This document shows positions 34,701 to 37,700 of a stretch of 64,000 nucleotides of DNA, in pieces. Position 1 is the first letter of the stretch. Each line of letters opens with the position of its first letter. The DNA comes from Capitulum mitella (taxonomy: Eukaryota; Arthropoda; Thecostraca; Pollicipedomorpha; Pollicipedidae). The DNA lies in assembly GCA_030062745.1 (NCBI GenBank), contig CP099840.1, positions 36,955,101-37,019,100 on the forward strand. Reading direction: 5' to 3'. Position numbers and translations under genes: made by a program. The notes beneath the pieces were generated by a model. It was given only the letters and a program-made list of their open reading frames with translations. It did not search any database and was not told the origin of the DNA.

Positions 34701-37700
34701 TGCACTGACCGCCTCTAGTTTGTCTAGTTTGTCTGGTTTGTCCGGCTGGTTAGTCACACTGGTCCCAGGGCGCCCAGACTGCTCGGCCACACGGCGCCCG
34801 TCCTTCGACTCACTTGTACATCTCGGCGGCGAGGGCGTACTGCTTGAGTCGGCGCAGGTGCTGTGCCACCAGACTGATGGCCTGCTCCTCGCCCTTGTCC
34901 AGCTTGCGGCCGGTCTCGATCAGCCTGGGGCAAGGTCGGAAAAACCGTTGTTGTCTGGTGTTGAAAAACACTACAAAATATGTCCTCCAAAGACATTTTA
35001 TACTCCAAAAGTTTGACCTTGTGCCTCCGTCAAAAAGCTATATTATAATCACGTTGACAAATTTCCAGCTCTGCAAGCAAATGATTCTGTCTCCATTCAC
35101 TGAGAAGCAGGTATGGTAGTAGCTGACCTATACCAAGAATGCCAATAACCAATAAACCAATATTAATGTTTGGAAAAATTCATACTCCAAAGCAAAAATT
35201 ATTCTCCGACAACAGAAACAAAAACCAAATTTCCAACCCTGGCCTGGGGCGAGGGCGCAGAGCCACAGGTCAACCCCGGACCAGGAACGGTCGCGGCCCA
35301 TGAAGAGGCTGCAGAGCGGGTCAAAATGCGAGGGCAGAGGTCAATCAGACTGGGGACAGACGGCGCAATCAGACGGCGCAAGATTCACAATACTTCGGGA
35401 GCGACGCTTTCAGCTGGTGTTACAGGGTGAATGAAACGCAACACTGCCTGCACGCCAGTCTTGGTTTGCGTAAATCCCGTGGGCATATTATTCATGGTAT
35501 GGCTTATGAATTGTTTTGATCGATTTATCGGTATAAATTTATACGTACAGAAATCAAACGTCAAACGTTCAGGAGTGTCACTGCTAAGCAACGTCAGAAT
35601 TTAGGGTACTTTTTAATGTTTTCGGAAGTTACGAGTTTGTTCTTAGAATTTTGGGATCGGACGAAATCAATTATTCCTTTGTCAAATAAAAAAAAATGCT
35701 TCTTAATCACTCTGATGGTTTGTCACGCATCAGCACATCAATGCACTGCCCATTCTGGAGTAGCAATGCAATGTTTTCTTCAGTTCAGGTTGTAACTGCA
35801 CAAATAAAACTGAATATGCATTCTACAAGCATTATTCTCTGCATATTATTCTTATGCACACTTGCCTCACTGGCCACACATAACGGTATATTTTTTTCGT
35901 TTTGCTTTCATGAATGCATGATCTCAGGTCACGACTAAGGTCGCGAAAAAAAAATTGGAACACCGCTGGTATGCTGCATCTGCTTACAAGCCATTACTTA
36001 TCATTTACTCTTCGCTTATGGATGACGCGCCATCCTTAGCCCCAATGTATTACTTCTATTTATCCAGACCTATCCCGGGCAGACACTTCCCCTACACCCT
36101 GCCCTGCACGGGGCCCCTCCCCCAATCCCCATCTCCCCGCCATGACGTGCCAAATCTGTCACCGTCACTCACATGTCGATCCAGCCGTTTTCGCCCATGA
36201 TCTCGATGGCCTTGATGGTCTCGCCGGCGTTGACGTACATCTCGGCGGCCGAGCGGAGCTCGTTGATGTTTTTGGCCCACTCGGCGCGCTTCTTCAGCAG
36301 CGTCTTTCGGTCGGACGAGTCCCCGTCGCCGGCGAACTCCTGCAACCACCCGGCTTACAGTCTCCACACAAACACAGAGTCAGTCACCGGCGAACTCCTG
36401 CAGCCCACCGGCTCACAGTCTCCACACAAACACAGAGTCAGTCACCGGCAAACTCCTGCAACCCACTGGCTTACAGTCTCAACACAAGCAGAGTCAGTCA
36501 CCAGCAAACTCCTGCAACCACCCGGCTTACAGTCTCCGCACAAACAGAGTCAGTCACCAGCAAACTCCTGCAACCACCCGGCTTAAAGTCTCCACACAAA
36601 CAAAGTCAGTCACCGGCAAACTCCTGCAACCCACTGGCTTACAGTCTTAACACACATACTGTCAATCACTGGCAAGCTCCTGCCACCAGCCAGCTCACAA
36701 TCTCCAGACAAACACAGTCAGTCGCCGGCGAACTCCTGCAACCACCCGGCTCATAGTCTTAACACACACATAGAGCCAGTCACCGGCAAACTCCTGCAAC
36801 GCACCGGCTTATAGTCTCCACACAAACACGTCAGTCACTGGCAAACTCCTGCAGCCAACTGGCTTATAGTCTTAACACACACACACAGCCAGTCACTGGC
36901 AAGCTCCCGCCACCAGCCAGTTCATAATCTCCACACACACAGTCAATCACCAGCAAACTCCTGTCACCAACCTGCTTACAGTCTCGACACAAAACCAGCG
37001 TCATTCGCTGGAAAACGTCTGCAACTAGCCGGCTTCAGTGTCAATACGGAGGGACGACGTCAAGAGCCGAAAAAGAAAAAGACCACAAACGTCCTGTCAG
37101 CACATTCACGCGGAAACAACACCGAATGGAGCTCACCACGACTACCGAGGCCCCCAGAGCAAGGCACAGAACGCCGACCCCGACAGCGCACCAACGCTCC
37201 ACCACGCGGTTCACGCCCGGCCAGTCCGGTGGGCCGCCGCGGCCGACCGGGAGCCGCGCCCGGCCGCCGGCGCGCCCTGACCTGGGCCAGGTCGAACATG
37301 CGCAGGTCGGTGTACATCTGGAGCGCGGCCGACGGCTTGCCGCCCTTCTGGTAGCACTCGGCCGCCTCCCGGAACTGGCCGCGGTAGGCCAGGATGTCGC
37401 CCAGGAACACCTGCTCGTTGAAGTCGCCCTTCTTCTTGCGCTCCTGTGGGCGTGCGCGGCGCGTTGCACGAGCTTCGACACGACGTACAAGAGGGCGCAT
37501 GGCCCTTCACGCTCCTGAGACTGGTCAAGCAGACATAATTTTAAGGCATGGACGTCCATCGGAAGACAGCAAGGACCTGGCTGCTTTACAGAATCACAAG
37601 CACAAAATCAAGCGCGATACATTTCCAATACACGCATGCTATACAAACATGAAGTAACTCACACGCCCTGCTCATTAAAAAATAGCGAAAGGCCTCAAGG

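Follow-up and report, generated by a model that had tools for sequence, protein, structure and literature searches.

How does an intron come to end in a row of near copies of its own 3' splice site, and what does such a row do to the gene that carries it? The question is raised by a 56-bp minisatellite in intron 15 of IFT122 in the thecostracan Capitulum mitella. It lies in the window, by which we mean the whole stretch of 64,000 nucleotides analysed here (contig CP099840.1, positions 36,955,101 to 37,019,100), and positions given below are those of the window. The window contains this part of IFT122 twice, as copies A and B, and the array is present in both with different numbers of units. 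The window and 100 kb of flank, 164 kb in all, were examined for the doubled stretch and for IFT122 exons.

A minisatellite across an exon boundary

The exons of copy A encode 277 residues that match human IFT122 (8bbf chain C) with an E-value of 6.6e-97 and the Pfam family TPR_IFT122 with an E-value of 2.6e-78. IFT122 is read from the minus strand at copy A and from the plus strand at copy B. In copy A, the exon bearing the array lies at 36173..36339 on the minus strand, where it is followed by GTGAGTGA, and an intron of 942 nt separates it from the preceding exon (37282..37443, minus strand). In copy B, the same exon lies at 62514..62680 on the plus strand, behind an intron of 530 nt. An earlier note on this DNA had called it exon 16. 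The gene and the boundary are borne out, and the number agrees if a short 5' exon escaped detection, since tblastn, with a human IFT122 sequence as the query, gives 14 exon stretches upstream of this exon, which is the fifteenth found.

TRF places the array of copy A at 36325-37039, with a period of 56, 12.7 copies, 78% matches and a score of 731, and its counterpart in copy B at 62273-62528, with a period of 52, 4.7 copies and 71% matches. Set against the exon coordinates, the array of either copy reaches exactly 15 nt into the IFT122 exon, and in both the authentic exon adjoins the end of the array. The unit comprises the acceptor region and 15 exon bases, and so spans the intron-exon boundary. 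When the array is cut at the acceptor, 12 units of 54-58 nt precede the real acceptor in copy A and five units of 51-58 nt do so in copy B. The earlier note had described a unit of about 56 bp made of the acceptor and some 15 coding bases of an IFT122 exon, and had counted about a dozen decoy acceptors in one copy and five in the other; these observations hold. In copy A, TRF and the unit split put the intronic part of the array at 36340..37039 on the minus strand, with A1 farthest from the exon and A12 adjoining it. The exon opens with 15 coding bases (the EFAGD codons) that occupy 36325..36339 on the minus strand, as given by the TRF edge and the boundary match, and each unit starts with a diverged copy of them. 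The shorter array of copy B covers 62273..62513 on the plus strand when its start is taken from TRF, the unit split setting B1 slightly farther upstream.

Is the likeness between the units and the exon start more than a coincidence? Against a 22-nt boundary made of 7 intron and 15 exon bases, units A1 to A12 match at 16, 16, 16, 18, 20, 22, 16, 20, 19, 19, 20 and 20 positions and units B1 to B5 at 16, 18, 21, 16 and 20, so that A6 reproduces the boundary at 22 of 22. Two-base-block shuffling of the copy A array, repeated 300 times, gave at most 17 matching positions, and on both strands of the background of the window (positions 1-36000 and 37101-58886) the maximum was 15. Set beside the full match of A6, these maxima rule out a chance resemblance to the exon start. 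The decoy AG itself is kept in 11 of the 12 units of copy A and in all five of copy B; A3 carries GG.

Compared by identity, B1 pairs with A1, B2 with A5 and B4 with A7 (93-97%), B3 ties between A6 and A12 (78%), and B5 pairs with A8 at 89%, next to 88% with A9 and 86% with A12. It points to whole units having been lost, or gained, on two occasions. A search for the array in the 477-Mb genome (16 contigs) gave at least two matches, both within the window. The predicted RNA fold of the copy A array is not special, with a z-score of -1.4 and 3 of 20 shuffles folding at least equally well. Across the 164 kb, TRF lists 27 rows, some of them overlapping, with a period of at least 15 and at least 2 copies. 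Only the 56-bp array and its counterpart in copy B overlap an IFT122 exon, in a scan that used 24 approximate IFT122 exon stretches and did without the copy B exons, stretches missed by tblastn and exons of other genes.

Two further repeats lie within the gene. A 97-bp array of 4 copies (93%) at 47265-47653 fills most of another IFT122 intron and touches no exon edge, stopping about 60 bp short of an IFT122 exon, and TRF finds 109 perfect GA repeats inside IFT122 at 45140-45357.

Did the exon edge give rise to the array, or the array to the exon edge? The exon start, EFAGDGD, aligns ungapped to DFLGSGD of human IFT122, in a comparison that covered human and other PDB sequences only, and this alignment implies an old coding sequence. 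Three CpG pairs lie within the first 15 exon bases. On these six bases fall 39 of the 51 differences that separate the 17 units from the exon over the 15 bases, CpG-type transitions making up 36 of the 39; once A1 and B1, which have diverged furthest, are set aside, 33 of 39 differences fall on the CpG bases, 32 of those 33 being CpG-type transitions, and since the units are related, all these figures describe a pattern rather than independent counts. The differences thus look like the decay of units from an exon-like ancestor. Together, the ungapped human alignment and the CpG decay make the exon edge the likelier seed, as the earlier note had supposed, and to judge from these sequences it probably did seed the array.

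Copies A and B of the locus

Do the two arrays belong to two genes or to two alleles of one? The doubled stretch measures 13 kb and holds the middle exons of IFT122; its copy A lies at 26844..39875 on the minus strand, within a contig that extends over 13901-58886 (k1). A 500-N scaffold gap (58887..59386) separates this contig from the next (k2), in which copy B begins at the gap itself, occupies 59387..64000 on the plus strand and goes on to about 71806 beyond the window. In both copies the doubled stretch ends at a 1.2-kb repeated element. The copies are 97.2% identical over 8.6 kb and 95.5% identical over 3.2 kb. Around the array (37395-34898) identity is 92.6-96.5%, whereas 18 of the 21 other 500-column blocks before the 1.2-kb element reach at least 97%; the lower ones are 38394-37895 (94.0%), 29414-28915 (94.6%) and 27918-27419 (96.2%).

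Taken as it stands, the scaffold displays a real inverted segmental duplication, in which two IFT122 loci would carry arrays that have diverged in length. The position of the copies in one scaffold, at a distance of about 20 kb, would suit such an event, as would the identities just given. However, the distribution of the exons argues against it. In the tblastn search of the 164 kb, amino acids 15-550 of IFT122 are matched only in k1, 552-931 in both contigs and 926-1237 only in k2. No N-terminal match was found in k2 or in the contig to the left (k0) at E-values up to 1, nor any C-terminal match in k1 below position 31700 at E-values up to 10, and the C-terminal matches in k0 are weak only (E-values of 1.1 or more). 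Read literally, neither copy would be a complete gene, since the N-terminal exons accompany only A and the C-terminal exons only B. Yet the middle exons of both look constrained: over eight shared exon stretches (1148 bases), the changes that separate A from B are synonymous in 10 cases and nonsynonymous in 2, with no gap and no stop. The start of copy B at a 500-N gap is a further point against a duplication.

Copies A and B are probably overlapping haplotypes of one IFT122 gene, placed beside the 500-N gap with one contig laid backwards. Past the 1.2-kb element, short repeats are all that matches between the contigs, and the element itself is turned round, so that a true duplication with a missing 5' part, or a rearranged haplotype, retains some probability; a real duplication is in our view unlikely, though it deserves to be kept in mind. 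Since the copies are probably haplotypes of one gene, the difference between 12 and 5 units would be allelic, and the 12-unit, 942-nt intron and the 5-unit, 530-nt intron are most likely alleles. The earlier note was right that unit number differs between A and B, but these are probably two assembled haplotypes rather than two copies of the gene. Read in this way, the case shows how haplotypes left unmerged can give the appearance of an inverted gene duplication.

The 1.2-kb element occurs at about 5138-6360, at 25643-26864, at about 32493-33715 and, outside the window, at about 71787-73002, with roughly 89-93% identity; a diverged copy (about 76%) lies near 49804-51017. It bounds the doubled stretch in opposite orientation in the two copies. 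Its ends are TTAACCCTATTCCCGG and the reverse complement, from which we presume an element of the piggyBac-like TTAA type. A tRNA cluster, mostly tRNA-Arg (tcg), is located between the middle and last exons of IFT122 (28029-31662 in the window; 2997-9424 of L003; 610-1553 of L004). Rfam predicts 7 tRNAs within the window and ARAGORN 6, and on the copy B side 4 of the 10 ARAGORN predictions in L003-L004 fall beyond the 1.2-kb element. Near the contig end, a 147-bp array (58021-58487, 3.2 copies by TRF) contains GGGGTTCGAACCCTG, which we take to be a tRNA B-box-like motif. An inverted pair at 22974-23477 and 24863-25366 consists of arms of 504 nt, 94% complementary and 1385 nt apart.

Splice signals in the units and the possible effect of the array

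How strong are the decoys beside the site that they copy? Scored with a matrix of mammalian type, the real acceptor reaches 2.7 and is the weakest of the six acceptors scored in the gene, the other five standing at 4.8, 5.3, 5.8, 6.4 and 8.1. Pyrimidines fill only 7 of the 16 positions from -20 to -5, and the polypyrimidine tract that the earlier note had read into the unit is absent. With the same matrix, decoy scores range from -8.1 (A3, where the AG is lost) to 5.0 in copy A and from 0.6 to 3.4 in copy B. As 9 of the 12 decoys in A and 3 of the 5 in B equal or exceed the real acceptor, its correct choice is left unexplained by sequence strength. Six A decoys agree with the boundary at 19 or 20 of 22 positions and a seventh at 22 of 22. 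With the real site not marked out by its strength either, the locus offers a ready-made case in which to ask how the spliceosome settles on a single acceptor when a dozen others look like it.

The weakness of the real acceptor could mean that the array aids splicing, with repeated branch-point-like or UG-rich motifs making up for the poor site. UGUGU is present in 16 of the 17 units and a branch-point-like motif in 12 of the 17. The decoy acceptors would receive the same help, however, and the weakness is that seen by a mammalian-type matrix; we find an aid of this sort very improbable.

Could the decoys instead lower the output of the gene? Read in the frame of the exon, all 17 meet a stop before reaching it, 14 of them at codon 6, A3 at codon 24, A5 at codon 33 and B2 at codon 41. 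The array might then be a length-dependent regulator, in line with the alternative acceptor use or tuning by allele length that the earlier note had raised. Its decoys would vie with the real site for the spliceosome or lead it to products with stops, and longer alleles would yield less IFT122. Such a role would be consistent with decoys about equal to a weak real acceptor and all followed by stops, with the branch-point-like motifs, and with the donor-like GTAAG or GTGAG found in 11 of the 17 units. It would also have a parallel in human ABCA7, where the length of a VNTR is correlated with skipping of exon 19 and with reduced expression (PMC5954066). In the same gene, however, a transcript retaining one repeat unit is frameshifted, present at a low level and independent of VNTR size. 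In amphioxus, Adh3 data and globin RT-PCR suggest that regular splicing is undisturbed by arrays of this kind (PMC3087553). Moreover, the AG in 16 of the 17 decoys would be equally expected from repeat homogenisation. We therefore regard a regulator of this type as quite unlikely.

In our opinion the array is likely to be mostly passenger DNA, a boundary minisatellite of variable length that the gene tolerates and that would be called a 'mirage' in amphioxus. A segment of about 56 bp, made up of the end of intron 15 together with the first 15 exon bases, would have been tandemly duplicated, and the copies, to judge from the anatomy of the units, would have expanded and contracted by slippage or unequal exchange into a minisatellite of variable length. 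Only the last copy would still serve as an exon start, encoding residues that align to human IFT122, and the upstream copies would drift, chiefly through CpG loss, and be carried as intron. In exon definition, an acceptor is chosen through its coupling to an exon with a downstream donor. The real IFT122 acceptor is likely selected in this manner, through coupling to the genuine exon and to the consensus-like donor (GTGAGTGA) 167 nt downstream. Mistaken use of a decoy would bring a stop codon into the message, and because stops lie ahead of the exon in every decoy, the products would presumably be removed by nonsense-mediated decay or end as truncated protein. The effect of the array on splicing would be modest at most.

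Two other roles would give the units a more active part. Acceptor-like sites alternate with donor-like sites along the array, and a middle unit could become a micro-exon running from the GTTGCAG acceptor to a GTAAG or GTGAG about 37 nt on; the array would then be an intermediate in exon or intron birth, a model proposed for the amphioxus mirages (PMC3087553). The codon-6 stop would nevertheless fall inside such exons in 14 of the 17 units, and we consider this fate extremely unlikely. A bolder idea, which we judge improbable, is that a heterozygous, fast-changing row of poison acceptors sets the amount of functional IFT122 from each allele, so that array length would be a heritable dial for cilium assembly, with mirages extending beyond lancelets.

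Comparison with known boundary arrays

The IFT122 array is a real feature of a known but little-known kind, and a good example of it rather than a new phenomenon. In a partial literature on boundary minisatellites, mirages and splice-site VNTRs, the titles and abstract openings name no arthropod boundary array; the crustacean minisatellite literature, in the part available, includes coding-region repeats in prawn lectins. NAGNAG tandem acceptors, in which AGs stand 3 nt apart before one exon, resemble the present case in that several acceptor AGs precede a single exon. Unlike these, the IFT122 decoys are 51-58 nt apart, and reading on from them meets stops.

The earlier note had called an array seeded by an exon boundary unusual, a judgement that needs qualifying, as such arrays are described as mirages in amphioxus (PMC3087553) and a donor-side case exists in human ABCA7 (PMC5954066). 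In the latter, intron 18 contains a 25-bp VNTR that starts with the exon 18 donor (PMC5954066). Like it, the IFT122 array lies at a boundary and carries a splice-site dinucleotide in its units (in 16 of 17), and length variation is large in ABCA7. The ABCA7 unit is on the donor side, with no exon part described, whereas ours is on the acceptor side: the array abuts the 3' splice site, and the preceding exon (at 37282) is more than 200 nt away, which sets it apart from donor VNTRs of the ABCA7 type. Of the systems compared here, ABCA7 is the nearest precedent for a repeated splice site being used at a low level.

The closest likeness is with amphioxus, where minisatellites spanning an exon-intron boundary occur in Adh3 and the globin genes BflGb6 and BflGb9 (PMC3087553) and in PGBD5 (PMC3902484), and troponin C is cited among them. 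The IFT122 array shares with these mirages a tandem unit that spans the boundary and many units with splice signals. In BflGb6, as in IFT122, it is the intron end and the exon start that are repeated, and two haplotypes carry 6 and 3 units (PMC3087553), compared with 12 and 5 in copies A and B, which are likely haplotypes as well. The systems differ in gene and genome and in unit size, which is 51-58 bp in IFT122, whereas Adh3 has units of 10-72 bp and BflGb6 units of 150-160 bp. For the amphioxus mirages the evidence includes transcripts. Boundary minisatellites thus occur far from lancelets, and the variation that they bring to splice sites and introns may be under-noticed.
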